In this document: one piece after another, positions 962 to 21,969 of the stretch
How positions within the stretch are numbered: the stretch's first letter is position 1
How the letters are laid out: the number at the start of each line of letters is the position of its first letter
Virus record (IMG/VR): IMGVR_UViG_3300027741_000292
Coordinates: 1-22,425 of that record
Source of the DNA: a virus
Direction: 5' to 3' (one strand)
DNA: 22,425 nt
Notes under the pieces: model-generated
Databases searched by the model: none
Told to the model about the DNA's origin: nothing
What the model saw: the letters and a program-made list of their open reading frames with translations, nothing else
Made by a program: the position numbers and the translations under genes

Positions 962-1551
962 AAACCAAATTTATTTTAGAAACTTCAACATTAGAAGATG
1001 TTTTGATGACAAAATATCAGGACATGAAAGAGGCTTGTAATGTTTGTAAACAGACTCCATGCCAATGTAAAAAATCTGATGAAAAAGAACTGGCGGAAGG
1101 TTATTTCAATCATAGTATCGATGATGCATTCAAAATGCTCGATGATCTAATGCGTCAAGAACGTGATTTAGACATTGAGCCAATGCTAAAAAGGTTATCA
1201 CCGGAGCTTCAAAAACAACTGGTCCAGTGGGCCCAAACAGATGGCAAAGCCGCTGTGGCTAATGACGAGTATCCAGAAGCAGATTGGGCAGCAAGGATTA
1301 ACAAATATTTGCATGGTGTGGCGGAAGGCTCGACTGGTCTATCTATACAACAACTGGCCACCATCAGCGATGAAGCATTAGATAATGCTTATCATTATGG
1401 TCGTAGTACCCCAGGTAATACATTTGGCTGGCAAGCAAACTTGAAGTCAGCGGCTTATGCTAAACAAATGATTGACAAGGGTGTTACTGATATTGAAGCC
1501 ATTAGCGAAAGGTTGGAATACCACTGCTCAAGCATTTGTAAAAAATCCTGA
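958..1551 (+). CDS. Modular phage protein, N-terminal part before a probable frameshift
   Basis: Starts at an ATG overlapping the previous stop (ATGA). As read it gives 197 aa, but the last ten residues or so look like an out-of-frame tail. Segments: an N-terminal Cys-rich piece (CNVCKQTPCQCKK, about residues 27-39), then ELAE|G, a helical acidic segment, HGVAE|G at about 119-124, and a segment ending DIEAISE. At base 1510 the reading frame of the conserved continuation (GWNTTAQAF...) is +1 relative to this frame. Dropping one A from the GAAAGG run joins the two parts into about 475 aa. The joined sequence reads ISEGWN, the expected opening of a RyR domain. Either a sequencing or assembly indel, a disrupted gene, or frameshifting would explain this. 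Probably a virion-internal, protease-cut protein (inference). Confidence 0.7.
   Translation: MKTKFILETSTLEDVLMTKYQDMKEACNVCKQTPCQCKKSDEKELAEGYFNHSIDDAFKMLDDLMRQERDLDIEPMLKRLSPELQKQLVQWAQTDGKAAVANDEYPEADWAARINKYLHGVAEGSTGLSIQQLATISDEALDNAYHYGRSTPGNTFGWQANLKSAAYAKQMIDKGVTDIEAISERLEYHCSSICKKS
1315..1330 (+). repeat. Copy of GVAEG-coding repeat
   Basis: GGTGTGGCGGAAGGCT, identical to 158-173 and in frame as GVAEG. Confidence 0.8.
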
Positions 1552-2386
1552 TCAATTCAGTGACACCGAAAAACTAAAAGCCGCTGGTAAACTCGAGGCT
1601 AAACTTCAACAACGATCACAATTGATGAAACAAAACTATGCTCAACTCCCAGAAGAAGAAAAAGAAAAAGACCGTGTGGTTGCTCGTGCATTGTTACAGG
1701 CTATTAAAGGCAAGCAAGGTGTGGCGGAAGGATCCAAAGAATTGCCGCAGTGGAAAAAAGATTGGTACGCTAAACAAAAACCAAATAGTTGGCCAAAGCA
1801 CCCTCAGCCATATCATAATCCAAATTGGATAGATGAACTAAGTCCAGAGGAGCGTAAAAAACTCATTGGAGGAAAAGGTGTGACGGAAGATCAAGACGAC
1901 GAGTGCCCAGTACATGGATCCCATGGATTCCCAAATCTCCAAGCAGATGAGTCTGCTTGTACTTGCGACTTTGACAAATTGGCAAATCCATCATGGCCGG
2001 ACGTGGAGCCAGACCAGGAAATGGACGAAGGCTCTTTTTATCGACAAGATTATTTTGATGCAAATAAAGATAGCAAAGTTAGAAGAAATGCTGAAATTGA
2101 CAAAAATCAAAATAAGAAGCAAGATTATTTTCGCGATCCAATAGACGATTTAGCTCATCTTCTTACACTTGCTGGCACAAAAGTCGGTGAAAAAGTAAAG
2201 GGAATGGTTAAAAAACCATCTGAACTAAATGAGTTGGGTGCAAATAATCCACCACAAGCTACAGGTACTAGCCCCGCACCAACAGCAAATACCGCAGCAA
2301 ATACAGCAGTAAATACATCCACTTTGAATCCGCAAGAACAAAAACAATTGGATGACTTGTTGAAAAAAGCTGGCGTTGTTAAATAA
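1472..2386 (+). CDS. Modular phage protein, C-terminal part with RyR-like domain
   Basis: The open frame begins at a weak TTG (1472), but genuine coding sequence seems to start at about 1511, as the continuation of the 958 gene in another frame. The first segment has GWNTTAQAFV, then LPEEEKEKDRVVARAL, the signature of RyR (ryanodine receptor repeat) domains. It ends in KQGVAE|G. Further segments are a W/P/K-rich piece ending GVTE|D, an acidic Cys/His piece (ECPVHGSHG and CTCDF) ending EMDE|G, and a basic helical piece with an Ala/Thr/Asn/Pro-rich linker. If this part were expressed alone, the first in-frame ATG after the junction is 1625, with no evident ribosome site, so I favour one gene of 958-2386 with a frameshift. 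RyR domains in prokaryotes and phages are thought to bind nucleotides or ligands in conflict systems; the role here is unknown. Confidence 0.65.
   Translation: MTRVLLILKPLAKGWNTTAQAFVKNPDQFSDTEKLKAAGKLEAKLQQRSQLMKQNYAQLPEEEKEKDRVVARALLQAIKGKQGVAEGSKELPQWKKDWYAKQKPNSWPKHPQPYHNPNWIDELSPEERKKLIGGKGVTEDQDDECPVHGSHGFPNLQADESACTCDFDKLANPSWPDVEPDQEMDEGSFYRQDYFDANKDSKVRRNAEIDKNQNKKQDYFRDPIDDLAHLLTLAGTKVGEKVKGMVKKPSELNELGANNPPQATGTSPAPTANTAANTAVNTSTLNPQEQKQLDDLLKKAGVVK
1709..1730 (+). repeat. Copy of GVAEG-coding repeat (long form)
   Basis: Identical over 22 bases to 602-623, in a different gene and between unrelated flanking segments. Confidence 0.85.
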
Positions 2387-2388
2387 TT

Positions 2389-2958
2389 ATGAAACTCATT
2401 GATTTATTTTTTGAATCAGAACTTGATGAGTATAGAAGCTCATATAGTAATGGTAGAATTGATTCGAAAAAATTCAAACCCGGAACAAGAGTGAGTCATC
2501 CCCTAATGGGGCCAAATTTGGGAACTATTGTTGATCCCAATACTATACCTATAGAAGATAGAAGAAGTACTGGAGTTCCAGTCAAACCAGATAGAACTAA
2601 TAAAATCTATTGGTTGAGTCCTGGAAGTTTGGAGATTTTGTCTGAAAACACACAACCCGAACCAGATACTGTGGCCAAGACTTGGGATCAAATGACACCA
2701 AAAGAAAAGTCGTCTGGTGTGAAAGGCCGCACAAAATATAATCCTGACACACGTAAGTATTATACAGTATTTGATGTTCCTGTAGAAAAGAAGCCAGAGC
2801 AAGACATGTCGGAAGGCAAAAAGGTTGATTCATTTGTTGACGCAGTTAAGAAAAGTGAAATTAAAGCAGGACATGCTGCTAAAGAAGCCGAATCTATAGC
2901 TTGGGCAACGGCTAATAAACGTGGTATGCTAAATAATAAAAACACTAAGAAAAAATGA
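2389..2958 (+). CDS. Conserved phage protein with one xxE|G-type site
   Basis: 189 aa, ATG three bases after the previous stop, no strong ribosome site. It begins MKLIDLFFESELDEY, an opening common among the short internal proteins of T4-like aquatic phages. A basic, Gly/Pro-containing middle (TRVSHPLMGPNLGTIVD at about 35-51, and YWLSPGSLEIL at about 74-84) looks like a small beta-barrel. DMSE|G at about residues 139-143 resembles the cleavage-like motif of the preceding genes, and a lysine-rich helical tail with WATANKRGMLNNKN follows. It overlaps the Dps-like gene by ATGA. Function not recognised; virion association is inferred only from its motif and position. Confidence 0.75.
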   Translation: MKLIDLFFESELDEYRSSYSNGRIDSKKFKPGTRVSHPLMGPNLGTIVDPNTIPIEDRRSTGVPVKPDRTNKIYWLSPGSLEILSENTQPEPDTVAKTWDQMTPKEKSSGVKGRTKYNPDTRKYYTVFDVPVEKKPEQDMSEGKKVDSFVDAVKKSEIKAGHAAKEAESIAWATANKRGMLNNKNTKKK

Positions 2959-3392
2959 CTACAGAATTAATCAAAGCCGCAAAAATTGCATTTGCTAGTG
3001 AATATAGCTTTTACTTGAAAGCACAGAATTTTCACTGGAACGTCACAGGAATAAACTTTCCACAATATCATCAATTGTTTGGAACAATCTACGAAGAAGT
3101 TGGTGACTCCATTGACCCATTTGCAGAAAATATACGCAAATTAGGATCATTCACTCCAGCTAGTTTTGATAGATTTAGTATGCTTACGGCTATTAACGAT
3201 GAATTAGAAGTTTTACCATCACAAGCAATGATTGCTGAACTATTAGAAGATAGCGATAAAATGTGCAAGGTTTTTAAAATGGTTTATGACTTGAGCGAAG
3301 CTGCTGGCGAAATTGGATTTAGCAATTTCCTAGCTGAAAGAATGGATGCCCATCGCAAACACAGTTGGATGCTTAGATCAACATTGGGCTAA
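2955..3392 (+). CDS. dps: Dps-like ferritin
   Basis: 145 aa four-helix protein of the Dps/ferritin-like family, which stores iron, removes peroxide and in some members binds DNA. It has the hallmark HWNVTG (His27) followed by His39, then D54-x3-E58 in DSIDPFAENIRKLG. These align with E. coli Dps H51, H63, D78 and E82 at the same spacing. The residue matching E. coli D67 is Gly43, so one ferroxidase ligand differs. The C-terminal half, FLAERMDAHRKHSWMLRSTL, is also typical. It has no extended Lys-rich N-tail for DNA binding. It lies directly after the modular genes with an ATGA overlap, so it may be co-expressed with late virion genes. Family assignment is firm; the role in the phage is inferred. 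Confidence 0.93.
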   Translation: MTTELIKAAKIAFASEYSFYLKAQNFHWNVTGINFPQYHQLFGTIYEEVGDSIDPFAENIRKLGSFTPASFDRFSMLTAINDELEVLPSQAMIAELLEDSDKMCKVFKMVYDLSEAAGEIGFSNFLAERMDAHRKHSWMLRSTLG

Positions 3393-5278: not shown

Positions 5279-5569
5279 ATGATCATTGATCTCTTTAGGC
5301 CTACTGTACAATGGATACAAGATGACTATAAAACTTATCCTACTCGTTTCCTCATTGAAGTTGTGGCTTGGGCTATTAGCATTGGATGTTCGATTACAAT
5401 GGCGATCACTGTACCGAATCCACCTTTACTTGTACTTTATCCTATTTGGATTATTGGCTGCGCTATGTATGCTTGGGCTGCTCATACTAGGAAAAGTTTT
5501 GGAATGCTGGCTAACTACCTCCTGCTTGTGACTATTGATAGTGTTGGTCTATTAAGAATGATTTTCTAA
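5279..5569 (+). CDS. Small membrane protein, three predicted helices
   Basis: 96 aa, ATG ten bases after the previous stop. After a soluble N-terminus (FRPTVQWIQDDYKTYPTR) there are three hydrophobic stretches at about residues 23-45, 49-69 and 74-95. The last runs MLANYLLLVTIDSVGLLRMI. This looks like a small integral inner-membrane protein of a type seen in T4-like cyanophage and pelagiphage relatives, where it is of unknown function. Another frame of the same region (5286-5531) is also hydrophobic but is a shadow. The lipoprotein gene follows one base after its stop. Confidence 0.75.
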   Translation: MIIDLFRPTVQWIQDDYKTYPTRFLIEVVAWAISIGCSITMAITVPNPPLLVLYPIWIIGCAMYAWAAHTRKSFGMLANYLLLVTIDSVGLLRMIF

Positions 5570-9395: not shown

Positions 9396-11210
9396 ATGAA
9401 TCAAGATAATTTAACAGAAAAACAACTTGGCCCTAATGGGCTGAGTCAATATGCAGTATTTTTGCCAGCCATATCTGGATTCTATGCTACATTTATTGGC
9501 AATCAACGTGTCAATAATGACTTCATTGACCCTGCACGTATGCCAGCACAAATACAGGATATGGAACAATTAAATTGGCTTAATAGTCAAAAAAGTCTGT
9601 TTCCATATAAATGGAGTTTGTATTCAGGTGGCCATGCCAACTTGGATCTATCTAAACCTGACCCGAGTGAGGATATGGTTCGTGATCGAGAGCCGGGCAG
9701 TTTTATATTAGGTGATAGTGGTGGGTTTCAATTAGGTAAAGGTCTTTGGCCTGGAGAATGGCGAGACCCCAATAGCACAGAAGTTCAACAACATTTGGCA
9801 GCATTGAAGGCAGCTGGTCCAGAAGTTCGTCCGGCTTTAGATTCAAGTGGAAATCCAAAAAAAGATAAAAATGGCAATGTAAAAACAGTTGTAATTGATC
9901 ATGCTAAACAATATCAAGATCGAATCGATGCGGCACAGAAGAAGCGTGAAGTTATTTTAAATTGGTTAGATACAGTTGCTGATTATGCAATGATTTTGGA
10001 CGTTCCAACCTGGGTCATTTATAATCCAGAAGCCAGTGATGCTTGTGGTATTAAAACATACGCAGATGCCATCAATGCTACGAAATATAATAATGAATAT
10101 TTTATGGCTAATCGCCGTGGAGTAAAAAATGGCGGCGCAAAGTTTCTAAATGTTCTTCAAGGTTCCAATCATGAGGAAGCTGATGAGTGGTATGACCTAA
10201 TGAAGGATTATTGTGATCCTGCAAAGTATCCTGATACACATTTCAATGGTTGGGCCATGGGTGGTCAGAATATGTGTGAGCCAGAGTTGATTTTACACAG
10301 ATTAGTGGCTTTGCGCTATGATAATCTTTTGCAGGAAGGTGTTCATGATTGGATGCACTTTTTGGGAACTAGTAAGTTGGAATGGGCAGTATTGCTAACT
10401 GATATTCAACGTGCAATTAGGAAATATGTTAACCCACAGTTTACTATTAGTTTTGATTGTGCTAGTCCATTCTTAGCCACAGCAAATGGTCAATTATATC
10501 ATGAGATTTCAGTTCCAAATAAAGGAAAGTGGAGTTATAGAATGGCTGGTGGCTGTGATGATAAAAAATATGCCCAAGACACTAGACCATTTGGTCAAGC
10601 TTTATTAGATGATGGTCTTTATAATACTTTTGAAGAAAGTCCTATCAGTTCTAAAATGTTGATCAAGGATGTTTGTATATATGGTCATGGTGTTCCTAAT
10701 TGGACCGCCATAGATGCAGATAACATTGATCATTCAAAAGTATTTAAAGATCCAGTGATTATGAATGATCCTCGCTATTGGATCACAATGGGTGATAAAA
10801 ACAAAATTGACAAAGTGGGAACCACCAGTTGGGATAGTTTTAGCTATGCATTGATGATGGGGCATAATGTTTGGATGCATATCACAGCAGTTCAACGTGC
10901 CAATGCTCTTTATGAACAGGGGCATTATCCAGCAATGATGCAACGTCGTGGCGGTGATTATGCCAAATTTGGAGATATTGTTGATAAAATCTTTGCGGCA
11001 ACGACTAGACAAGAATCAGAAGATATAATTAAAAGTTATAGCAGCTATTGGATGGAAATCCCTGGAACTAGAGGGTTTACTGGTAAAAAATCGATGAATC
11101 CCTTGACCATGAGCAATAAACTTGTTACAATAGAAGGAACAACCACAAAGGTTGAAAAAGTTAAAAAAGAAAAATCTAAAGTAATACTAAACGATTTATT
11201 TGAGGAGTGA
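9396..11210 (+). CDS. dpdA: DpdA-like TGT-family transglycosylase (7-deazaguanine insertion)
   Basis: 604 aa. TGT-family enzymes exchange guanine for a 7-deazaguanine base; phage DpdA does this in DNA rather than tRNA. Visible landmarks: GDSGGFQ with D107 (TGT general acid/base motif DSGGFQ); ILDVPTW, matching the substrate-binding Asp region; FNGWAMGG, matching the TGT GG(L)xxGE loop; and ISFDCASP with D354, matching the catalytic nucleophile in TGT FDCVxPTR. The C-terminal CxCxxC...H zinc site of tRNA TGTs is absent, which favours DpdA. The ribosome site before ATG 9396 is weak. A YdcH-like gene follows. FolE and a QueD-like gene elsewhere in the window support the pathway. TGT family is firm; DNA as substrate is inferred. 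Confidence 0.87.
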   Translation: MNQDNLTEKQLGPNGLSQYAVFLPAISGFYATFIGNQRVNNDFIDPARMPAQIQDMEQLNWLNSQKSLFPYKWSLYSGGHANLDLSKPDPSEDMVRDREPGSFILGDSGGFQLGKGLWPGEWRDPNSTEVQQHLAALKAAGPEVRPALDSSGNPKKDKNGNVKTVVIDHAKQYQDRIDAAQKKREVILNWLDTVADYAMILDVPTWVIYNPEASDACGIKTYADAINATKYNNEYFMANRRGVKNGGAKFLNVLQGSNHEEADEWYDLMKDYCDPAKYPDTHFNGWAMGGQNMCEPELILHRLVALRYDNLLQEGVHDWMHFLGTSKLEWAVLLTDIQRAIRKYVNPQFTISFDCASPFLATANGQLYHEISVPNKGKWSYRMAGGCDDKKYAQDTRPFGQALLDDGLYNTFEESPISSKMLIKDVCIYGHGVPNWTAIDADNIDHSKVFKDPVIMNDPRYWITMGDKNKIDKVGTTSWDSFSYALMMGHNVWMHITAVQRANALYEQGHYPAMMQRRGGDYAKFGDIVDKIFAATTRQESEDIIKSYSSYWMEIPGTRGFTGKKSMNPLTMSNKLVTIEGTTTKVEKVKKEKSKVILNDLFEE

Positions 11211-11441: not shown

Positions 11442-11801
11442 ATGTTAAACTTATATAAAGGTCTATTGGATATCACTATTAAAAATAGTAAAACTCAGAT
11501 TAGTGAAATTACCACACATATTAGACAATTTAATGAAAAAGATGAAAATTCTCTTTTGCAACCTAAAAGCTATTGGAATCTTTTATTGGAAATGTCCTGG
11601 ATATTAATCACATTGTTTAAGAGTGTGATTGGTATTGGTTTGTTAATGTGTATGTTTATTGTGTTCTATCCTTTGAACGCATTCTTGTCATATCTTGAAT
11701 TGTTTGTGGTTAAATCTGAACAAAGTTTGTCTCCATATACATTTGCAGAAAAGCCACTATTAGAAGAAACTACAACTAAAAAACTACGAGCGCAAAAATG
11801 A
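11442..11801 (+). CDS. Membrane protein of unknown function
   Basis: 119 aa, ATG 11442 with AAGGA six bases upstream. The N-terminal ~45 residues are soluble and helical (KNSKTQISEITTHIRQFNEK). One long or two closely spaced hydrophobic helices cover about residues 51-90 (ILITLFKSVIGIGLLMCMF...FLSYLELFVV), and a short charged tail ends in KKLRAQK. No family recognised. It overlaps the next gene by ATGA, implying translational coupling to the oxidoreductase. Confidence 0.7.
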   Translation: MLNLYKGLLDITIKNSKTQISEITTHIRQFNEKDENSLLQPKSYWNLLLEMSWILITLFKSVIGIGLLMCMFIVFYPLNAFLSYLELFVVKSEQSLSPYTFAEKPLLEETTTKKLRAQK

Positions 11802-12676
11802 AAAGTTTGATTGTGGGTATGGGCATCGGCCAATTATACAAAACTGTTTTGACAGAATTAGGTCATGACATTGTTACTGTTGATGCCGATAAAAATAAAA
11901 ATGTAGATTTTGAAACTATTGATCAAGCAATCCTAGTTCATAAGCATTTTGATACTGCACATATCTGCACTCCAAACTTTACACATTTCGACCTTACCAC
12001 TCGAGCAGCTCGAGCTAGTAAAATTGTATTTGTTGAAAAGCCAGGTGTTGCTGCTGCCTTAAATTGGGCCACTTTGGTTCATACATTTAAAGACACACGT
12101 TTCATGATGGTTAAAAACAACATGTGGCGTGACAATATTCAACAATTAAAACAATCAGCTCTTGATTCTAATAAGGTTAATTTGTTGTGGCATAATCGAG
12201 ATCGAGTACCTAATCCGGGCACTTGGTTTACTACTAAGAAGTTGTCATTTGGTGGCGTGAGTCGAGACCTAATGCCGCATTTATTGAGCTTGTATATTGC
12301 TCTAAATCCCGATTGGATAGAAGAATCAATGACCGGTAAGAGCTCAGATCGTAAATGGAATTTAGAGGATCTAACACAAACCGATTATGGCATTGTAAAA
12401 GCTGATGGTGTTTATGATGTGGATGACCATTGTTATATAGATTTTGGCACCAAATGGCATTTGTCGGCCGACTGGCGAACCAATCAGACTGATAATAGAT
12501 CCATTAAGTTTGAAAAATCTGATGGAACTACAGAAACGTTTGAATTGGGACTTTGCCCTGAATCAGCATATAAATCAATGATTGCGGATGCTTTGGCTAA
12601 TCTAAATAACGAAAATTTTTGGAGACAACAATTGGTTTATGACTATTGGATTCATGAAAGAGTGGAAAATTTATGA
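11798..12676 (+). CDS. Gfo/Idh/MocA-family oxidoreductase
   Basis: 292 aa, shorter than most members (about 330-380). The N-terminal Rossmann fold has GMGIGQLY at residues 7-14, an acidic strand end (VDAD), ICTPNFTHFDL, and the family EKP motif at E80-K81-P82. A C-terminal alpha/beta substrate domain follows. Such enzymes oxidise or reduce sugars, often nucleotide-linked, with NAD(P). It overlaps both its upstream neighbour and the zinc-type dehydrogenase downstream by ATGA, so the two dehydrogenases are probably made together. A paired role in making an unusual sugar is plausible; the substrate is unknown. Confidence 0.85.
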   Translation: MKSLIVGMGIGQLYKTVLTELGHDIVTVDADKNKNVDFETIDQAILVHKHFDTAHICTPNFTHFDLTTRAARASKIVFVEKPGVAAALNWATLVHTFKDTRFMMVKNNMWRDNIQQLKQSALDSNKVNLLWHNRDRVPNPGTWFTTKKLSFGGVSRDLMPHLLSLYIALNPDWIEESMTGKSSDRKWNLEDLTQTDYGIVKADGVYDVDDHCYIDFGTKWHLSADWRTNQTDNRSIKFEKSDGTTETFELGLCPESAYKSMIADALANLNNENFWRQQLVYDYWIHERVENL

Positions 12677-13554
12677 TAGTCAAATGCCTGCAAACTCTTG
12701 GTCAAGGTAACTTTGAAGAAGTTGAATATCAAGTTCCAGCAATTGGAAAAAATGAAATTCAAGTTCGCGCAGTGATGACTGGTGTGTGCAGAAGTGATAT
12801 TGATATGATGCAGGGTAATTTTGGCCCATTACCATTGCATATGCAAGGTCATGAAGGTCTAGGCCAAGTAGTTGCTATTGGTGATGATATTTCCAATGTC
12901 AAAATAGGCGACTACGTTGCTACACGTGGCGAACCAGCTTACGCAGATATATATAATGTGCGTAAAGATGAGTATATATATGTGCCAGAAGCACACCCTA
13001 GATATATTATTGAACCTGTAGCCTGCGGAATTAATACTGCACAACTTGATACCAAAGATAAAAATAGTAAAATTCTAATCATTGGTAGTGGATTTTTGGC
13101 TTGGGTTGCTTATCACACCCTAACTAAATTTAAACATTATAAAAATGTAGATGTGTTAGGTTCCAGTAATATCGACCTATGGGGAGATGTATTATTATTC
13201 GGAACCAGTGAAAGCTATGATGTGGTTATTGACCTATCTGGAAAATATGCTTTGGGTTTGGATATAAACCTAAATAATAATGCATTAATAGTTGATGCTG
13301 TTGGAAAAGCTGTATCAAAACAAGAAGCACAACAACAACTTTGGAAAGCTGTTACTACTATTAAGCCCAGTCCACGTAATCCAAATTTTCATCAATCGAT
13401 GAAAGACGCTGTATGGATGATTGAAAACGGTTATCTTGACGTTGATAATTTCTGGACAAGAGCTTATAATAGGACAACTGAATGGCAACAGGCATTTGCG
13501 GATGGTGTGGATCGTCCAAATGGCTATAGCAGAGGTTACATTAAATGGGATTAA
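12673..13554 (+). CDS. Zinc-type alcohol dehydrogenase (MDR family)
   Basis: 293 aa, short for the family (about 340-350). The GroES-like half has GVCRSDID (C39), GHEGLGQVVAIG (H60, E61), VKIGDYVATRG and IEPVACG (E114). These are the catalytic zinc-site landmarks of medium-chain dehydrogenases. The four-Cys structural zinc lobe is missing. The Rossmann half is compact with ILIIGSGFLAW as the nucleotide loop. The gene begins within the end of the oxidoreductase gene and overlaps the next gene by ten bases. Pairing with a Gfo/Idh/MocA protein is known in sugar and surface-glycan clusters. Substrate unknown. Confidence 0.85.
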   Translation: MIVKCLQTLGQGNFEEVEYQVPAIGKNEIQVRAVMTGVCRSDIDMMQGNFGPLPLHMQGHEGLGQVVAIGDDISNVKIGDYVATRGEPAYADIYNVRKDEYIYVPEAHPRYIIEPVACGINTAQLDTKDKNSKILIIGSGFLAWVAYHTLTKFKHYKNVDVLGSSNIDLWGDVLLFGTSESYDVVIDLSGKYALGLDINLNNNALIVDAVGKAVSKQEAQQQLWKAVTTIKPSPRNPNFHQSMKDAVWMIENGYLDVDNFWTRAYNRTTEWQQAFADGVDRPNGYSRGYIKWD

Positions 13555-14063
13555 ACACAGTAGAACGTCAAGGTGTCACATACTTTACGGGTTATGAAGT
13601 AGAACATACTGTTTGCCATGGTATGAAAACGTTGTTTGTTGTGGGCACACCACCACTTGAAGAAATCTTCTCAAAAGCTGAGGAAAGTCAAGTAAAACAC
13701 ATCTATTTTGGTACTAGTCAAAGCTTTAATCCTAAGGCAATGACCCATGGTGAATATCAAGCATGGGATGAAGTTATCCTTGGCTGTTTAAATAAAGACT
13801 ATTGGGTAACTTTAGATTTTGGTGTAGAACACATTGAAGGTGTATTGGAATCTAGTTACAACGAATATAATCGTTTTGTTCCTATGATTAGTGTAAAATT
13901 GCCTTACATTAATCAACTCAACTATAATGCAACATTAAAGTTGGATGATAAGACTTGGGGAGCCACAAATCCAGGCGTATGGACACATCATCTTCAAAGC
14001 CTAATGAATAAGGAAACTTATACTCATTGGGATCAATATGAAAACGACTCAACAGTTGAATAA
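13545..14063 (+). CDS. Conserved T4-like phage protein, function unknown
   Basis: 172 aa, overlapping the dehydrogenase gene by ten bases. It begins MGLNTVERQGVTYFTGYEVE and includes GMKTLFVVGTPP, VKHIYFGTSQSF, YWVTLDF, VPMISVKLPYI and KTWGATNPGVWTHHLQSLM. This set is a family I recall from T4-like phages of cyanobacteria and other aquatic bacteria, without known activity. The alternation of short beta strands with loops suggests an alpha/beta or barrel fold. It is the first of three consecutive conserved phage genes before the QueD-like gene and the strong hairpin at 15110. Confidence 0.75.
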   Translation: MGLNTVERQGVTYFTGYEVEHTVCHGMKTLFVVGTPPLEEIFSKAEESQVKHIYFGTSQSFNPKAMTHGEYQAWDEVILGCLNKDYWVTLDFGVEHIEGVLESSYNEYNRFVPMISVKLPYINQLNYNATLKLDDKTWGATNPGVWTHHLQSLMNKETYTHWDQYENDSTVE

Positions 14064-14074
14064 GGAAATATAAA

Positions 14075-14356
14075 ATGGGATTCAAGCGTTGGTTAAGAAG
14101 TTGGTTATATTCTGATCAGGAACCGGAAATCAAAATACGTTCAACATCACTTGTAAGTTATTCGGACTCTCGTCAAGATTTTGGAAACAGTATTAAGTTT
14201 AATTTAGTTTCGGCTCGAGGCGGGGCAATTATCACAGTAAAACATTATGATCAAGTCAAAGATCGAGAGTTTGAAACAGTTTATGTAATTCATGAAGATG
14301 AAAGTTTCGATCAAAATCTACTTAATATTATCAACATGGAAAGGATTAAATTATGA
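14075..14356 (+). CDS. Conserved small phage protein
   Basis: 93 aa, ATG 14075 with AAGGA upstream. After a basic, Trp-containing N-terminus (MGFKRWLRSWLY) the protein looks like a small beta sheet with a C-terminal helix: NSIKFNLVSARGGAIITVKHYD, REFETVYVIHED, then SFDQNLLNIINME. I recognise the 'GIKF...a.GG.iv....yd...d......YvI.d' pattern from T4-like phages but know no function. It overlaps the QueD-like gene by ATGA, so the two are probably coupled. Confidence 0.72.
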   Translation: MGFKRWLRSWLYSDQEPEIKIRSTSLVSYSDSRQDFGNSIKFNLVSARGGAIITVKHYDQVKDREFETVYVIHEDESFDQNLLNIINMERIKL

Positions 14357-14781
14357 ATCAAGAGCAACGTGAAACTATCGAGCGTATTAAATCTGCGGCT
14401 AATAGGAATATTTGGGTTACATTTCAAAAAGCTGGATTTCATAAATATCCAGCAGCCAGTATTGATCCAGCATTAGAGGATGTTTCCTATCTTGGAAATC
14501 GTCATCGTCATTTGTTTAAATTCAATATACAAATTGAAATTTTCCATAATGACCGTGAAATCGAATTTCATCAATTTTTAAACTATTGTGAGTCATTGTT
14601 CAATACTGGTGCTATTGACATTGACTATAAGAGTGTGGAGATGCTGGCTGACGACCTGTATCTACATATTGCTGTACGATATCCCAATCGTGCAGTAACC
14701 ATCTCCGTAAGTGAAGATGGTGAATGTGGTTGTACTATTGAGTATAATACTCGTAGACCCAACCTAACTGTTAGTGTATAA
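14353..14781 (+). CDS. QueD/PTPS-like T-fold protein (putative)
   Basis: 142 aa. Its order of elements parallels 6-carboxytetrahydropterin synthase QueD: His30, then H51-R-H53 in NRHRHLFKFNIQIEI (QueD LHGHSFMVRLEI, zinc His pair); REIEFHQFLNYCE (QueD IIDFAELK); YKSVEMLADDLYLHI (QueD NPTSEVLAKWIW); and VTISVSEDGECGC with E121 (QueD VMVKETCTAGC, catalytic Glu). The zinc histidines and Glu are in place, but the catalytic Cys before HxH is Leu47 and the DHH...N element is not obvious. It may be a diverged enzyme or a non-catalytic T-fold protein. QueD acts just after FolE in preQ0 synthesis, and a FolE lies in this window. The alignment was made by eye. Confidence 0.55.
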   Translation: MNQEQRETIERIKSAANRNIWVTFQKAGFHKYPAASIDPALEDVSYLGNRHRHLFKFNIQIEIFHNDREIEFHQFLNYCESLFNTGAIDIDYKSVEMLADDLYLHIAVRYPNRAVTISVSEDGECGCTIEYNTRRPNLTVSV

Positions 14782-14820
14782 TTATTTTTTAACTTTAACT
14801 TTTGAAAGAAAGAAAACAAA

Positions 14821-15105
14821 ATGGCACAGCCTAAATGGATCGAAAAATATCTTCGTATGAAGCCCGAAGTTACTAAATTATTTGATGATTTGGAAGCATA
14901 CTTAGATTATTGTAAGATCAATATGTTGAAGTTCGACGAGAAAGATCTCTATCGCAGTGAGCAATATCGTCGATTCGAAAAATATCGCAATTGGCTCTAT
15001 CGTCGTGGTAATGCTGAACAATCTGGAGAACCACAGAAAGAATATTCACGACCACCTCGTAAAGAATATTCACGAGCACCGCGTTCGCAACAACAACAAA
15101 CGTAA
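14821..15105 (+). CDS. Conserved phage protein with short tandem repeat tail
   Basis: 94 aa. The N-terminal ~65 residues (PKWIEKYLRMKPEVTKLFDDLEAYLDYC, then DLYRSEQYRRFEKYRNWL) are helical and resemble a small conserved family of T4-like aquatic phages. The tail has two copies of KEYSRxPR and a Gln-rich end, and is basic and probably disordered. The upstream region is purine-rich (GAAAGAAAGAAAA) without a strong Shine-Dalgarno core. It is the last gene before the hairpin at 15110-15132. Function unknown; nucleic acid contact through the basic tail is a guess. Confidence 0.7.
   Translation: MAQPKWIEKYLRMKPEVTKLFDDLEAYLDYCKINMLKFDEKDLYRSEQYRRFEKYRNWLYRRGNAEQSGEPQKEYSRPPRKEYSRAPRSQQQQT
15037..15084 (+). 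repeat. Two-copy 24-base in-frame tandem repeat
   Basis: AAAGAATATTCACGA at 15037-15051 recurs at 15061-15075. Period 24, with two mismatches across the unit. Encodes KEYSRPPR then KEYSRAPR. Confidence 0.85.
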
Positions 15106-15109
15106 GATT

Positions 15110-15132
15110 AGTGGGGGACTTGTTCCCCCACT
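15110..15132 (+). terminator. Strong hairpin ending the dpdA operon
   Basis: AGTGGGGGA (15110-15118) pairs perfectly with TCCCCCACT (15124-15132) across a five-base loop, five bases after the preceding stop. No U-run follows (CATAATC), so intrinsic termination is uncertain; it may stabilise the mRNA 3' end. Confidence 0.65.
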
Positions 15133-15156
15133 CATAATCAAATATTGACTTTTAAC

Positions 15157-16257
15157 ATGACAGTTTATATTGTAGATCTCGAAAGTATCCCTACTAGATA
15201 CACTTGCGAATGGCAAGAACATATTCCTAAACTTTTAGAACAAGCTGGTCATGATGTTAAAATTATTACAGGTCCTGTTGATATACCTAGTGCTACTACC
15301 CCTGGCGCATTTCTTAACTTTGGTGGAACTAATATTTTCAAAGCTTGCCAAGTTGAACAAATGGCTAGGCTATTTTGTTCCGGATCAATCTGTGCTGGTG
15401 ATCACTTTATCTTTACAGATGCTTGGCACCCTGGTATCATCAATTTAAAATATATGAGTGAACTACTGAATATTCCAGTAGTTACACATGGTCTTTGGCA
15501 TGCCGGAAGTTATGATAATCAAGATTTCCTAGGACGTCTTGTTGGCAATAAACCTTGGGTTAGGCATGCGGAGAAAAGTTTCTTCCATGCATTTGACTAT
15601 AATTACTTTGCTACGAATTTTCATATAGAAATGTTCTATACAAATTTGTTGAATGATTATCCTACAGAGAATCCTTGGTTTGAAGAAGATCTTAAACACT
15701 TGCTGGATGGTGAATTAACAGATAAGATTGTGCGTACAGGTTGGCCAATGGAATATATGGATGCCATATTGTCTCCATATAAGAATATGTCTAAACGTGA
15801 TCTTATCTTATTCCCACATCGCATTGCTCCAGAAAAACAAGTTGAAATTTTTAGAGATTTGGCCACACAATTGCCACAATACGAATTTGTTGTGTGCCAG
15901 GATCAACAATTGACTAAGAATGAATATCATACTTTGTTAGGTCAAGCAAAAATTGTATTCAGTGCTAACTTACAGGAGACGCTTGGGATAAGTTGTTTCG
16001 AAGGTGCAGTGGTAGATGCCATCCCAATGATTCCCAATAGACTTAGCTATAAAGAAATGTATTTTGATATTTTCAAATACTCAAGCCAATGGACCGAATC
16101 GTTTGAATCATATTCACAACATAAACAAGAGTTATGTGGCTCAATAATTCAACATATGGATAATTATTCTAATCTAATTCCAGAGATTAAAAAACAAGCC
16201 GCAGTTTTGTCTGAAAAGTTTTTCTCGGCAACGGTGTTATTAAATAATATTAAATGA
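15157..16257 (+). CDS. GT-B glycosyltransferase (GT1/GT4-like)
   Basis: 366 aa from ATG 15157; a TTG at 15145 would add four residues, and neither has a clear ribosome site. The C-terminal half has LILFPHRIAPEKQVEIFRDL, YEFVVCQDQ, and QETLGISCFEG with E274-x7-E282. These are the donor-binding features of retaining GT-B enzymes (E-x7-E). The N-terminal half has acceptor-domain style strands (YIVDLES, HDVKIITGP, HFIFTDAWHPG). It would transfer a sugar from a nucleotide or related donor; the acceptor (DNA base, lipopolysaccharide or virion protein) cannot be told. It overlaps the epimerase gene by ATGA, so donor-making and transfer are likely coupled. Confidence 0.82.
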   Translation: MTVYIVDLESIPTRYTCEWQEHIPKLLEQAGHDVKIITGPVDIPSATTPGAFLNFGGTNIFKACQVEQMARLFCSGSICAGDHFIFTDAWHPGIINLKYMSELLNIPVVTHGLWHAGSYDNQDFLGRLVGNKPWVRHAEKSFFHAFDYNYFATNFHIEMFYTNLLNDYPTENPWFEEDLKHLLDGELTDKIVRTGWPMEYMDAILSPYKNMSKRDLILFPHRIAPEKQVEIFRDLATQLPQYEFVVCQDQQLTKNEYHTLLGQAKIVFSANLQETLGISCFEGAVVDAIPMIPNRLSYKEMYFDIFKYSSQWTESFESYSQHKQELCGSIIQHMDNYSNLIPEIKKQAAVLSEKFFSATVLLNNIK

Positions 16258-17237
16258 AAAAAACAATTATATTGACAGGTGCCTTTGGCTATATTGGTAG
16301 CCATACTGCCAAAGTTTTTAAACAAGCTGGATATGAAGTCTATGGTATTGATCGTGAGCATACAATACCTGAAGCAGCACCATTCTTAGATATTTGGCTC
16401 AGAAGTGATTTTGCTGATGCCGTTCCTACATTATTGTCAAATAATTTAGATGTAGAAGCTATTGTACATTGTGCTGGCACAAGCCTTGTTGGACCTAGCA
16501 TAGATAATCCTGGGCTATATTATGATAATAATACAGCCAAGACCAATCAAATGTTACATGAGATTAGAAATTTAGATTGGTCTGGTCTAGTGGTCTTTAG
16601 CAGTAGCGCCGCAGTATATGGCAATAATTGCGTCAGTCCAATTAAGGAATCTGCTGAGGGATTTCCAGTAAGCCCATATGGTTGGAGTAAAAAGTTTTGT
16701 GAACAAGTTATTCACGACCATTGTCTAGCTCATGGTATGAGAGGAATAGCATTGAGATATTTCAATGCCGCCGGTTGTGATATTTCGGGAGAGTTGGGTC
16801 ATGTACGATATGACACTCATATTATTCCAAGAATACTCAGCGCACATCAAAATAGATCTAAATTTATTCTAAATGGCAATGATTTCAAAACCCCAGATGG
16901 TACATGTATAAGGGATTACCTTCATGTTGAGGATATAGCCAGGGCTCATTTGGCCGCAGTTACATTTGGCCAAAATTTGGATTTTGGTGAATTTAGAAGT
17001 TACAATTTGGGTACTGGCCAAGGTTATAGTAATTTACAAGTTGTTGAATCTTGTGAGCGTGCCTTTGGTGCTAGTTTAAATTACCAAATTGGTGACAGGA
17101 GAATTGGTGATCCTGACATATTAGTTGCCGATGGTTCAAAATTTCAAAATGATTCTCTTTGGGTTCCCAAATATAGTGATATTGATGTTATTTGCAAGTC
17201 TGCCTGGGCTTGGCAAAAAAATATTAGTATGTTATAA
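16254..17237 (+). CDS. galE: UDP-glucose 4-epimerase-like SDR enzyme
   Basis: 327 aa, close to bacterial GalE (about 338). The NAD loop TGAFGYIGSHT (residues 8-18), SSSAAVYG (116-123), catalytic Y142-x3-K146 in YGWSK, RYFNAAG (169-174) and DGTCIRDYLHVEDIARAH are all GalE signatures. It interconverts UDP-glucose and UDP-galactose, or the N-acetyl forms. It starts within the stop of the glycosyltransferase gene (ATGA). A promoter for folE overlaps its last codons (-35 at 17210-17215). The GalE class is well supported; exact sugar specificity is not. Confidence 0.9.
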   Translation: MKKTIILTGAFGYIGSHTAKVFKQAGYEVYGIDREHTIPEAAPFLDIWLRSDFADAVPTLLSNNLDVEAIVHCAGTSLVGPSIDNPGLYYDNNTAKTNQMLHEIRNLDWSGLVVFSSSAAVYGNNCVSPIKESAEGFPVSPYGWSKKFCEQVIHDHCLAHGMRGIALRYFNAAGCDISGELGHVRYDTHIIPRILSAHQNRSKFILNGNDFKTPDGTCIRDYLHVEDIARAHLAAVTFGQNLDFGEFRSYNLGTGQGYSNLQVVESCERAFGASLNYQIGDRRIGDPDILVADGSKFQNDSLWVPKYSDIDVICKSAWAWQKNISML

Positions 17238-17272: not shown

Positions 17273-17962
17273 ATGGAAAAAAATCTATCACAAGTTTTGC
17301 GTGAACGCATGCGATCAGACGGCAAGAGGTTCTGGGCTGGTGACAATATCAGTGAATATATTACAGAGTCGGACCGAGAACATTTAATCAATGAAGCTAC
17401 GGAGGCATTTGAAAAGGTATTGGATACTTTGCTTATTGACCGAGAGAATGATCCAAATAGCAAGGGCACAGCTCGTAGACTTGCCAAGATGTATTACAAT
17501 GAAATTATGGAGGGACGATATGAGCCAGCACCAGACGCAACAGCATTTCCAAATGATTCGTCAGACCGTTATGAAGGTATGTTGGTTGTTCGTAGTGAGC
17601 TTCGCAGTATGTGTAGCCATCATCACCAACCCGTTAATGGTGTTGCTTATATTGGTATTATTGCGGCTCAGAAACTTATCGGACTCAGCAAGTACACCCG
17701 TATTGCACAGTGGTGTGCCAGACGAGGTACACTCCAGGAGGAGTTATGTAATGACATTGCCCGCGAGATTAGCAAAGCTACTGACTCAGAAAACATAGGT
17801 GTTTATATGAGAATGACACATGGATGTTGTGAAAATAGGGGCCTAATGGCTCATGATAGTTCCACAACAACCACTGTGCTTAGGGGAGCATTTAACAATG
17901 ATGCTGGTACAAAGAAAGAGTTTTTCGACACTCTAGCACTTCAAGAATCACATAAGAGATAA
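17273..17962 (+). CDS. folE: GTP cyclohydrolase I
   Basis: 229 aa (E. coli FolE 222). It converts GTP to 7,8-dihydroneopterin triphosphate, the first step toward folate and toward 7-deazaguanines (preQ0, queuosine). Zinc site: C114-S-H-H117 in MCSHHHQPVNG, and C185/C186 in HGCCENRG, aligning with E. coli C110, H113 and C181. KYTRIAQWCARR and LRGAF are further family blocks. Tandem cysteines at 185-186 are unusual. The phosphoribosyltransferase gene starts one base after its stop, so the two are likely co-expressed from the promoter overlapping galE. The likely purpose is to feed 7-deazaguanine synthesis with the DpdA-like protein; folate boosting is the alternative. Confidence 0.95.
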   Translation: MEKNLSQVLRERMRSDGKRFWAGDNISEYITESDREHLINEATEAFEKVLDTLLIDRENDPNSKGTARRLAKMYYNEIMEGRYEPAPDATAFPNDSSDRYEGMLVVRSELRSMCSHHHQPVNGVAYIGIIAAQKLIGLSKYTRIAQWCARRGTLQEELCNDIAREISKATDSENIGVYMRMTHGCCENRGLMAHDSSTTTTVLRGAFNNDAGTKKEFFDTLALQESHKR

Positions 17963-18992: not shown

Positions 18993-19198
18993 AACTGTGC
19001 CCCAAGTGTGATTCACCTGCCATCTGCTGCGATCACTGTATGAACTATGACTTCAATGCCGACAGCGAAGGTCGCTATACGGGTGCAGGCCGTGCGGATG
19101 CAGTAACAGTGATTCATCTGATGACAGCCGCTACCCTGGATGAAGAATCTAATGTTGCAGAATCACAACAATATTTGTCTAAATTTCGGTTGGCCTAA
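18989..19198 (+). CDS. Small Cys-rich protein with probable metal site
   Basis: 69 aa. CPKCDSPAICCDHCMNYDF at the N-terminus has CxxC...CCxxC spacing typical of a zinc ribbon or knuckle. The rest (AVTVIHLMTAATLDEES) is helical. It is richer in G+C than genes to its left, marking the start of the compositionally distinct block. The -35 of the next promoter overlaps its last codons. Function unknown. Confidence 0.65.
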   Translation: MKLCPKCDSPAICCDHCMNYDFNADSEGRYTGAGRADAVTVIHLMTAATLDEESNVAESQQYLSKFRLA

Positions 19199-19218
19199 AT
19201 CTATTTTGGTTGTATAAT
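19190..19218 (+). promoter_or_regulatory. Early promoter cassette, copy 1
   Basis: TTGGCC (19190-19195), 17-base spacer, TATAAT (19213-19218), then a leader with ATTGTAACGCAAAAAGGAGT shared with other copies. Drives the gene at 19251. Confidence 0.8.
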
Positions 19219-19250
19219 ACTTGTATTGTAACGCAAAAAGGAGTGGGAAA

Positions 19251-19397
19251 ATGAGAGAATTGCAACAACTATTAGTTGATTCTGTGGGCTGTGGACTGTC
19301 CGACCGATCCATTATTGAATTGATGGTCGAAGAAGGTTTGCCTAGAGAAGCTTGTCCAGAAATCCTGCGAGTTTTTAAAGAATCATTGAGTTGCTAA
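19251..19397 (+). CDS. Small protein, 48 aa
   Basis: MRELQQLLVDSVGCGLSDRS, continuing to ...VFKESLSC. It is helical and acidic, with four Cys. It has an AAAAAGGAGT ribosome site and its own promoter cassette. The stop is followed at once by a hairpin (19396-19413). No family recognised; the strong signals argue that it is real despite its size. Confidence 0.7.
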   Translation: MRELQQLLVDSVGCGLSDRSIIELMVEEGLPREACPEILRVFKESLSC

Positions 19398-19413
19398 AAA
19401 ACAACAGTTTTTT
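19396..19413 (+). terminator. A/T stem-loop before promoter cassette 2
   Basis: AAAAAAC (19396-19402) pairs with GTTTTTT (19407-19413) around AACA. The U-rich right arm could serve as a weak terminator. Placed between a stop codon and an early promoter, as in the PeSL cassettes of T4-type phages. Confidence 0.5.
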
Positions 19414-19415
19414 GG

Positions 19416-19444
19416 TTGACCAAAAAACATTTTGGTTGTATAAT
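19416..19444 (+). promoter_or_regulatory. Early promoter cassette, copy 2
   Basis: TTGACC (19416-19421), 17-base spacer, TATAAT (19439-19444). ACCAAAA-AACA-TTTTGGT (19419-19436) lies across the -35/spacer, and a nine-base-arm palindrome (19408-19427) is centred on the -35. The shared leader ends in AAAAAGGAGT. Confidence 0.85.
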
Positions 19445-19475
19445 ACACTTATTGTAACGCAAAAAGGAGTAGATT

Positions 19476-19730
19476 ATGAAACTAATTGGACATTCATACA
19501 ATTACAAGGTGGTTACAGATATATCCAGCAAAGAAGATGCCGAGACTGATGTGAATGGTAGACAAATTCTATTTAAAACTAATAATTATAAAAATGCGCG
19601 AAAAAAATGCATTGAGTGGGCGGCTTTCGACGATATTGAAGTGTTTGTCCTTGACGAATTTGGCAGCATCAAGTTCTCTTGTCAAGGTGCTTCAGAAGCC
19701 TTTGATCGATTTCCAAAAACATTTGGTTGA
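19476..19730 (+). CDS. Small early protein, function unknown
   Basis: 84 aa from ATG 19476, six bases after GGAGT. It starts MKLIGHSYNYKVVTDISSKE; the middle is basic (TNNYKNARKKCIEWAAFDD) and the end is mixed strand/helix (IEVFVLDEFGSIKFSCQGAS). Its stop codon lies within the -35 of the next cassette. No family recognised. Expected to be expressed early from its own promoter. Confidence 0.72.
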   Translation: MKLIGHSYNYKVVTDISSKEDAETDVNGRQILFKTNNYKNARKKCIEWAAFDDIEVFVLDEFGSIKFSCQGASEAFDRFPKTFG

Positions 19731-19755
19731 CCAAAAATCATTTTGGTTGTATAAT
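19727..19755 (+). promoter_or_regulatory. Early promoter cassette, copy 3
   Basis: TTGACC (19727-19732, overlapping the upstream TGA stop), 17-base spacer, TATAAT (19750-19755). Palindrome ACCAAAA-ATCA-TTTTGGT at 19730-19747. Leader nearly identical to copy 2. Confidence 0.87.
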
Positions 19756-19787
19756 ACACTTATTGTAACGCAAAAAGGAGTAGGAAA

Positions 19788-20042
19788 ATGGCAACATACA
19801 TGGATGCAGTCAACGGCAATCACACCAGCCAGCCCAACTATGACACACGTCACGGTGGCCCTTTTGATCGTGGCTCAGCCGACAGCTGGTACGGTCGCAA
19901 ATTTGATCCGCACTACTGGCCACAAGGCACTTACAAAGGTACTCGCGTGGAGATGGCACAGATGACTGCTGCCGAAATCACAGCCTATACCGCAGGATTC
20001 CGTGACAACGAGCAATTTGGCGGCAAAAAAGAGTGGGATTAA
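19788..20042 (+). CDS. Small conserved phage protein (DRGSAD...HYWP type)
   Basis: 84 aa, visibly G+C-rich. FDRGSADSWYGRKFDPHYWPQGTY, then MTAAEITAYTAGFRDNEQFGGKKEW. This pattern (DrG..D..Y.R...PH.wP.G...g......T..E...Y..GF......kdW) recurs in AT-rich form at 20888-21085, so the two are probably distant paralogues. Such proteins are common in phage early regions; function unknown. Own promoter cassette and GGAGT ribosome site. Confidence 0.75.
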   Translation: MATYMDAVNGNHTSQPNYDTRHGGPFDRGSADSWYGRKFDPHYWPQGTYKGTRVEMAQMTAAEITAYTAGFRDNEQFGGKKEWD

Positions 20043-20046
20043 ACGG

Positions 20047-20076
20047 TTGACTCGAATTGGTCGTTTCGGTTATAAT
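20047..20076 (+). promoter_or_regulatory. Early promoter cassette, copy 4 (diverged)
   Basis: TTGACT (20047-20052), 18-base spacer, TATAAT (20071-20076). The spacer differs from the other copies (CGAATTGG, TTTCGG), but the leader still ends in CAAAAAGGAGTAGGAAATG-type sequence. Confidence 0.78.
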
Positions 20077-20106
20077 ACTAGTATTGCGAACAAAAAGGAG
20101 TAGGAA

Positions 20107-20391
20107 ATGTCACAACTTAGCACTATTCAGCAAATCAATTCTGCCATCATGTTTGGTAATCTAACCAACACTGAATTGTCCAGTATCATTGATGCCGTCA
20201 AATGGGCCCGCAGCCAGTTGACCAAGGATGTGAAGAACTCGATCAAGACTGGGCAGATGGTCAAGTTTACGTCAAGCAAAACCGGCAAGACCCTGGTGGG
20301 AGATGTGACCAAAATTGCTATCAAGTATGTCACAGTCCGCACTCCGCAGGGTCTTTGGCGAGTGCCTGCTAACATGTTGGAAGCCGCATAA
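20107..20391 (+). CDS. Small conserved phage protein with beta-barrel-like C-terminus
   Basis: 94 aa. The N-terminal half is helical (LTNTELSSIIDAVKWARSQL). The C-terminal half is a small beta-barrel pattern: IKTGQMVKFTSSKTGKTLVG, then VTKIAIKYVTVRTPQGLWRVP. The 'G..VkF.s.rtG....G.V.ki..k.v.V....glWrVPa.mL' signature is shared by many phage early proteins and resembles KOW/SH3-like barrels. Function unknown, nucleic acid binding possible. G+C-rich, with its own promoter. Confidence 0.75.
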   Translation: MSQLSTIQQINSAIMFGNLTNTELSSIIDAVKWARSQLTKDVKNSIKTGQMVKFTSSKTGKTLVGDVTKIAIKYVTVRTPQGLWRVPANMLEAA

Positions 20392-20396
20392 AACGG

Positions 20397-20425
20397 TTGA
20401 CCAAAAATCATTTTGGTTGTATAAT
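20397..20425 (+). promoter_or_regulatory. Early promoter cassette, copy 5
   Basis: TTGACC (20397-20402), 17-base spacer, TATAAT (20420-20425). The spacer is identical to copy 3. The leader ends AAAAAGGAGTTTGAG before ATG 20457. Confidence 0.87.
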
Positions 20426-20456
20426 ACTTGTATTGTAACGCAAAAAGGAGTTTGAG

Positions 20457-20882
20457 ATGGCACACATGAGTCAAGAAAAGAAAGCAAAGATTGCTCCAGT
20501 TGTAAAAGCAATCTGCAAAAAGTATAATATCAAGGCCAGCCTGGCAGTTCGCAATCACTCTACACTGTGCCTGAATTTGCGCCAAGGCGAGATTGACTTT
20601 GTTGAAAACTTCATCGAAACTGATAGCCGGGTCGCACATGGTCGAAAAATGTCCCAGGACCAAATCGACTACATCCGCCGAAATCGATCACTGGATGTGA
20701 ACCCTTACTGGTTCCAGGAACACTTTTCAGGTCGGGCCTTGGAGTTTTTGAAAGAAATATTTGCTGCCATGAATGCAGGCAATCATGACCGTAGTGACAT
20801 TCAAGTCGATTACTTTGATGTGGGCTGGTATGTGGATGTCAACATTGGTCGGTGGAATCAACCATATGCACTGGTTAAGTGA
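20457..20882 (+). CDS. Conserved phage/plasmid protein, possibly LPD29-like
   Basis: 141 aa. MSQEKKAKIAPVVKAICKKY, ASLAVRNHSTLCLNL, then LDVNPYWFQEHFSGRALEFL and GNHDRSDIQVDYFDVGWYVD followed by VNIGRWNQPY. I recognise this conserved family from many phages and mobile elements; it may correspond to large polyvalent protein associated domain 29, but I am unsure of that label. Biochemical function unknown; a role early in takeover or anti-restriction is only a guess. G+C-rich, own promoter cassette, strong GGAG site. Confidence 0.75.
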   Translation: MAHMSQEKKAKIAPVVKAICKKYNIKASLAVRNHSTLCLNLRQGEIDFVENFIETDSRVAHGRKMSQDQIDYIRRNRSLDVNPYWFQEHFSGRALEFLKEIFAAMNAGNHDRSDIQVDYFDVGWYVDVNIGRWNQPYALVK

Positions 20883-21633: not shown

Positions 21634-21662
21634 TTGACTTTTGATTGTTTTGATTGTATAAT
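21634..21662 (+). promoter_or_regulatory. Early promoter before envelope peptide genes
   Basis: TTGACT (21634-21639), 17-base spacer, TATAAT (21657-21662). It starts directly after the upstream stop codon. The leader differs from the 19190-20425 cassettes. Confidence 0.8.
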
Positions 21663-21691
21663 ATATTTTTGTTTGACACTGAAAGGTACTT

Positions 21692-21820
21692 ATGAAAGGC
21701 TTTGTTTTAGGAACTATTTTCGGAGTAGTTATTGCTACTGTTGGTTTTTCTGGCATTGCTAAGATGCTGGATAAAGGGGTTGATACAGTTAAAACTCACA
21801 GTCAGGAGTTGGCAAAATGA
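21692..21820 (+). CDS. Small membrane-anchored peptide, 42 aa
   Basis: MKGFVLGTIFGVVIATVGFS, then GIAKMLDKGVDTVKTHSQELAK. One hydrophobic helix (about residues 3-24) with a short amphipathic tail. GAAAGG lies before the ATG, and a strong promoter at 21634-21662. It overlaps the next small lipoprotein gene by ATGA. Function unknown; an envelope location is likely. Confidence 0.7.
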   Translation: MKGFVLGTIFGVVIATVGFSGIAKMLDKGVDTVKTHSQELAK

Positions 21821-21969
21821 AATGCATTTTATCAATGATTTTGATTTTAGCTTTGTCAGCATGCAGTACTGTTAAAGAAACTGCTGGTGGGTTCGTTGAT
21901 GGGGCTAGTAAGGATATCAAGAGTTTGGGCACTGCTGGTGAAAAATTGGCAGATAAGATTAGAAACTAA
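21817..21969 (+). CDS. Entericidin-like small lipoprotein, 50 aa
   Basis: MKCILSMILILALSAC is a lipoprotein signal with lipobox L-S-A-C16. The mature part (STVKETAGGFVDGASKDIKS, then LGTAGEKLADKIRN) resembles entericidin-type lipoproteins (CNTv.G.G.Di...G). Entericidins are small outer-membrane lipoproteins of Proteobacteria. The start overlaps the stop of the preceding gene. A phage copy may alter the envelope or block superinfection (inference). Confidence 0.72.
   Translation: MKCILSMILILALSACSTVKETAGGFVDGASKDIKSLGTAGEKLADKIRN

Follow-up and report, generated by a model that had tools for sequence, protein, structure and literature searches.

A promoter-cassette array in an uncultured T4-type phage and its apparent part in shuffling small gene modules

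A row of small genes, each preceded by a similar predicted promoter and leader, raises the question of whether such repeats only drive expression or also provide the homology by which the genes are exchanged, and of whether they are the promoter early stem-loops (PeSLs) that the initial annotation matched them to. The window analysed here, a whole virus record of 22.4 kb (22,425 nt), is an incomplete genome. Its T4-type DNA polymerase (phrog_262, E 7e-189) is closest among isolates to those of the large rhizobial phages Sinorhizobium phage Phosso (51%) and Atu_ph07 (48%). The phage would accordingly be a T4-type myovirus, T4-related by its polymerase and with a morphology deduced from a partial genome; it is an uncultured phage, probably of freshwater origin. 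Searches by megablast, blastn and tblastn of the cassette genes found no isolate phage with the array and no isolate match at the DNA level, and no exact cassette was found in bacterial genomes. Isolates having a homologue of the last array gene, ORF 20457, have promoters that are few or not arrayed. One homologue lies at 140335-140745 of phiN3 (KR052482); in some Sinorhizobium phages it is annotated 'molecular chaperone DnaJ', for which PHROGs and Pfam give the window protein no support.

All five copies lie on the plus strand at the positions first reported (19190, 19416, 19727, 20047 and 20397), and a small ORF begins within about 30 nt of each. At every site the hexamers match at 10-11 of 12 positions with a spacing of 17-18 nt, as predicted sigma70-like promoters, and TTGACC-N16-18-TATAAT occurs three times in the window versus 0.05 expected from shuffles. 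Four copies (19190, 19416, 19727 and 20397) form one 62-nt repeat family of 84-98% identity with the leader TATTGTAACGCAAAAAGGAGT, the longest exact runs in common being 42 nt (19190/20397) and 45 nt (19416/19727). The description of the copies as near-identical, with -35, spacer, TATAAT and leader in common, thus holds for these four but not for 20047, which has an 18-nt spacer (TCGAATTGGTCGTTTCGG) and a leader (ATTGCGAACAAAAAGGAGT) of its own and shares exact runs of only 11-16 nt with the other window copies.

The first cassette (19190..19250, dialect A) has TTGGCC as its -35, a 17-nt spacer and TATAAT at 19213-19218, and precedes a 48-aa ORF (19251..19397) without a family match, a singleton numbered as cassette family 104. 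The second (19416..19475, dialect A) has TTGACC, a 17-nt spacer containing the 7-bp hairpin ACCAAAA/TTTTGGT, TATAAT at 19439-19444 and the leader of the first. Its 84-aa ORF (19476..19730) ends in a TGA (19728-19730) inside the TTGACC of the third cassette (19727..19787, dialect A, same spacer hairpin); likewise, an ORF ending at 19198 reads through the -35 at 19190, so that the reported overlap of -35 elements with upstream stops is confirmed. There follow an 84-aa ORF of family 8 (19788..20042; 11 contigs), the fourth cassette (20047..20106, dialect B, with TTGACT and TATAAT at 20071-20076), a 94-aa ORF of family 0 (20107..20391; 78 contigs), the fifth cassette (20397..20456, same spacer hairpin) and a 141-aa ORF of family 1 (20457..20882; phrog_10415), which is 89% identical in L009-L011.

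As had been stated, the genes between the copies are unrelated, the five falling into five different families; all are small (48-141 aa) and without Pfam assignment, and gene order there is little conserved. Their supposed richness in G+C applies to ORFs 19788 (52.5%), 20107 (47.4%) and 20457 (44.8%), clearly above the 37.5% of the window, but not to 19251 (40.8%) and 19476 (36.5%), which are not clearly raised. A sixth promoter core, TTGACTTTTGATTGTTTTGATTGTATAAT, lies at 21634..21691 on the plus strand before ORF 21692, with the same spacer type (TTTTGATTGTATAAT) and a leader unrelated to those of the array. Positions 21692-21969, 3' of this core, hold two very small ORFs, the second of which (50 aa) carries the lipoprotein-type signal LALSAC and could not be assigned to a family with confidence.

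Several genes elsewhere in the window deserve mention in their own right. GVAEG or a near variant (GVAEE, GVTED) occurs five times in three consecutive ORFs at the left end (14-961, 958-1551 and 1472-2386; window 14-2386) and almost nowhere else in related loci; we take such motifs to resemble prohead-protease cleavage sites. A ferritin-like/Dps-type protein is encoded at 2955-3392. A 604-aa ORF at 9396-11210, for which no match was found in Pfam, NCBIfam or PHROG, carries a DSGGFQ motif, presumably as in tRNA-guanine transglycosylase/DpdA-type enzymes, and lies near a GTP cyclohydrolase gene (17273-17962); the two may point to 7-deazaguanine DNA modification. Positions 11798-17237 hold a group of sugar/nucleotide-sugar genes, including a GFO/IDH/MocA oxidoreductase, an ADH-like protein and, at 16254-17237, a GalE-type epimerase above the NCBIfam cut-off.

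Besides the sixth core, the wider search for the cassette covered 187 loci (1.37 Mb) of IMG/VR relatives, namely contigs fetched with three cassette genes and four stretches from three contigs having the exact cassette. The pattern TTG[AG][CT]N-N15-18-TATAAT found 713 promoters, versus 20 in the reversed control, and 520 of them are followed by a Shine-Dalgarno (SD) and an ORF, representing 107 gene families. A 17-nt spacer is seen in 477 cases; leaders have a median length of 30 nt, and the encoded proteins one of 94 aa. Contigs of 170-380 kb carry 8 to 46 promoters each, mostly on the same strand, with a strong bias in whole contigs (44/2, 39/0, 34/0). The upstream stop usually falls within the -35 or ends 5 nt ahead of it, and at 24 of 185 tandem junctions it is the TGA of TTGAC. 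It should also be noted that the family 3 promoters (L038, L043, L050, L061) are nested in a long inverted repeat (e.g. GACAGTTATTA...TAATAACTGTC) and have a long leader, unlike the other cassettes. Separately, L169 (at about 1540), L179, L180 and L183 have a cassette-type promoter before a 365-aa protein (MKKIFAIMIAFAATSVFAQSAVNITGLVDTG...), beside a 20107-type gene; this protein reads like a betaproteobacterial porin and may be a clue to the host.

Relatives do not keep the same genes in the same order. Among 174 tandem cassette-gene pairs, 93 are distinct; 15 cassette-gene families are found directly before family 1 (window 20457) and 12 before family 0 (window 20107), and the cassette gene that follows family 8 differs among L005, L009, L093 and L098. 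With families in brackets, close relatives read [13][26][1] in L043, [13][26][15][35][1] in L044/L045/L046, [13][15][1] in L050 and [13][1] in L038/L040, and the window and L009 have [8][0][1] versus [0][15][1] in L010/L011. Between these relatives, blastn segments stop and resume inside cassettes. Fourteen event types, from 51 contig pairs, consist of a module present or absent between cassettes; here the cassette of the 'empty' site can be set beside those of both parents. In L043 versus L044, with flanking proteins of 98% and 99% identity, the junction cassette equals the one following the upstream gene in its 5' half and the one preceding the downstream gene in its 3' half; L050 versus L045, L040 versus L044 and L009 versus L010 give further mosaic cassettes of the same pattern. 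Hence, the proposed exchange of single-gene modules bounded by the cassette is borne out by the differing gene orders and by crossovers resolved inside cassettes.

The two sides of the promoter follow different genes. When only the upstream gene is common to two contigs, agreement is 0.63 in the bases 5' of the -35 (baseline 0.36) and 0.49 at the RBS/SD (baseline 0.39); when only the downstream gene is common, the values are 0.40 5' of the -35 and 0.71 in the leader (baseline 0.42). The switch in linkage lies within the promoter, with the reservation that the contig pairs in these tests, drawn like all our data from metagenomes, are non-independent and that gene-adjacent bases are partly linked anyway.

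Judging from its cassettes, the window is itself a recombinant, in which cassette 20047 has the dialect of L009 and its neighbours have another. Cassette 20047 is identical at 66 of 68 positions to the orthologous L009 cassette (at 5332 there), compared with only 53/72 and 58/71 for the cassettes on either side, which carry the dialect of L005-L008. The block in common with L009 begins at 19725, at the -35 of the third cassette. In the fifth cassette, the 5' flank up to the -35 is of L009/L114 type (GCATAAAACGGTTGACCA) and the remainder is dialect A.

By the same kind of comparison, recombination is not limited to cassettes. ORF 20107 is an intragenic mosaic that switches at ~20190-20210 from an L009-L011-like 5' part to an L114/L119-like 3' part: identity to L009 is 83-100% up to about 20210 and 43-60% thereafter, and identity to L114 climbs from 47-67% to 70-97% past the switch. 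Homology to L010 stops at 20878-20882, where gene 20457 ends and no cassette is present, and the L131 homologue of ORF 19476 (69% at the DNA level) lies directly 3' of a 20107-type gene with no cassette between. Cassettes are thus not the sole sites of exchange. In the 75-90% amino acid identity bin, neighbour conservation is 0.54 at cassette junctions versus 0.78 for non-cassette pairs, and 0.40 where a cassette gene is followed by a gene lacking one. We therefore do not take this gene-order test as evidence that exchange is specific to cassettes: cassette-less junctions of cassette genes are equally unstable, and part of the plasticity therefore belongs to the region or the gene type.

Taken together, we consider it probable that the cassettes are early promoters doubling as recombination homology, by which modules of one to three genes are moved. 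Each would consist of a strong promoter of the host sigma70 type (17-bp spacer, near-consensus hexamers), a short unstructured leader and a Shine-Dalgarno, and each small accessory gene would be expressed early as a unit of its own. With its length of 50-65 nt and its near identity both among genes and among relatives, the cassette would serve as homology; a crossover inside the promoter would delete, insert or reorder one- to three-gene modules and leave the flanking genes unharmed, because the promoter stays intact in every product, as the upstream stop codon often does. Within a lineage, cassettes would grow alike, giving rise to its dialect. Promoter and leader, module indels, mosaic cassettes, altered gene order and dialects can all be read from the sequences. 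The promoters would presumably be active, and early in timing, and the crossovers would be the work of phage or host homologous recombination machinery. Homogenisation may proceed by conversion or duplication, and exchange would follow incidentally from the repetition of promoters, without itself having been under selection.

Alternatively, the cassettes could be bona fide PeSLs of the RB49/phi1 kind, in which a promoter is combined with a stem-loop terminator, insulating each gene and serving as the means of shuffling; we find this rather unlikely. In its favour, three of the five window copies (19416, 19727 and 20397) have the perfect 7-bp hairpin between -35 and -10, followed by TATAAT, where some RB49 hairpins also sit (TTGACAGGGGATCGGCGATCCCCTATACT). 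Among 331 distinct cores of the clade, spacer stems of at least 5 occur in 11.2%, versus 4.0% expected (at most 6.6% in 200 shuffles), and the stem sequences are unrelated; a few relatives (L070, L131, L132 and L134) have a true terminator abutting the -35. However, the hairpin is absent from two of the five window copies, and in the other three it is A+T-rich with only 2 G-C pairs, versus 4-6 in RB49 promoter hairpins of at least 7 bp. The largest lineage (group B, around L012-L067) has no excess of spacer hairpins. A terminator abuts the -35 in only 7 of 396 cassettes (1.2 expected), and at the five window cassettes no terminator-like hairpin with a T-run was found in that position. Stop codons here run into the -35, leaving no room for a terminator. 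No stem-loop was found in the transcribed leader, which is unstructured, and the search for an Rfam element found none. The match to PeSLs is thus upheld in part: the promoter and the module shuffling agree with it, and the stem-loop is a weak hairpin in three of five window copies and a minority feature of the clade, with the terminator absent from the window.

The dialects lend themselves to another explanation, in which they act as operators bound by a regulator, or by an RNA-binding protein, of the phage itself and are alike through common selection rather than recombination. Spacer and leader are indeed lineage-specific, a palindrome (GTTTTTTGGTTGACCAAAAAAC) overlaps one -35, and at protein identities below 60% the cassettes of one genome resemble each other (0.65) more than orthologous cassettes do (0.56). 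Above 80% identity, however, orthologous cassettes are the more alike (0.81 versus 0.67 within genomes), pair covariation in the palindrome is weak, and cassette 20047 carries the other dialect within the same array; we regard operators as improbable. The greater likeness of close relatives' orthologous cassettes means that homogenisation is slow, and the pattern as a whole is compatible with slow homogenisation or with shared selection. We considered a palindrome centred on GGTTGACC as a general feature and rejected it, its pair covariation being weak.

A reading in which the cassettes are promoters only, kept by selection for strong early expression, with genes arriving and leaving by illegitimate recombination ('morons') and similarity reflecting sigma70 and ribosome constraint, is already disfavoured, and we give it little credence. 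The -35, -10 and SD are functionally constrained, and turnover of gene order is high at cassette-less junctions too; but the similarity extends into spacer and leader outside the hexamers, in exact runs of 42-45 nt, and constraint does not predict crossovers inside cassettes or opposite linkage gradients. Finally, that unrelated genes were joined at 60-nt repeats during short-read assembly is very improbable. The repeats are indeed identical over up to 45 nt, and some variants sit on contigs from a single sample (L043 and L050, for example); but identical arrangements are found in separate metagenomes (three for L044/L045/L046, two for L010/L011, and also L038/L040), which argues against misassembly, and reading frame and spacing are kept in the joined modules.

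To our knowledge, promoter-mediated gene shuffling had previously been examined in a few close phage pairs. Under the preferred reading, of promoters doubling as recombination homology, the proposed process is now seen across more than 100 contigs of uncultured phages, in which single crossovers can be placed inside a promoter, and this suggests that the stem-loop is dispensable for the shuffling role. The opposite linkage gradients on the promoter's two sides are a signature applicable to other phage groups. We put forward tentatively, at somewhat under even confidence, the broader proposal that a cassette without a constant stem-loop, converging on dialects, is a principal driver of the turnover of accessory genes in a large uncultured T4-related group, and that crossovers inside promoters keep every recombinant gene expressed.

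Comparable arrangements are known from other viruses. In the archaeal myovirus HGTV-1, a TATA-like box with an inverted repeat precedes most ORFs of one genome half and was proposed, by analogy with PeSLs, to shuffle genes (PMC3950731). It resembles our case in having a promoter-type motif before ORFs and a proposed role in shuffling, but the promoter is archaeal and shuffling was proposed from analogy, whereas swaps are compared directly here. In the Campylobacter group II phages CP21/CP220, direct repeats (units of 72-86 bp, in stretches of 1-2.9 kb) lie between modules of 28-55 kb and are crossover points for module rearrangement (PMC4546147). These phages too are T4-related and have direct repeats as crossover points, but their repeats are not single-gene promoter cassettes.

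PeSLs themselves were described from RB49; the features expected of them include a stem-loop that terminates transcription effectively and encapsidated mini-circles formed between neighbouring copies. PeSLs of the T4-type phages RB49/phi1 and others are reportedly the subject of Arbiol et al. 2010 and Comeau et al. 2014, as cited in PMC4503421 and PMC5348500. Our reference for them was a set of RB49 gaps picked by size rather than the published PeSL list. Nearly all of these gaps have a terminator immediately ahead of the promoter or else a G+C-rich 7-9 bp hairpin that lies in the spacer or covers the -10. The cassettes are like PeSLs in their TTGACN-N16-18-TATAAT-like promoter, short conserved leader with SD, location in gaps of 57-110 nt that separate small accessory genes, role as sites of exchange and, in some copies, a spacer hairpin. 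Unlike those of RB49, the hairpins in the window and clade are A+T-rich or absent, and the sequences form lineage dialects. As far as its sequence records, the array works like PeSLs in shuffling modules. Because a spacer hairpin is present in only three of five window copies and a stem-loop is missing from most of the clade, the cassette is best regarded as a variant of the PeSL rather than a member, a well-supported reading of an element that is probably widespread.
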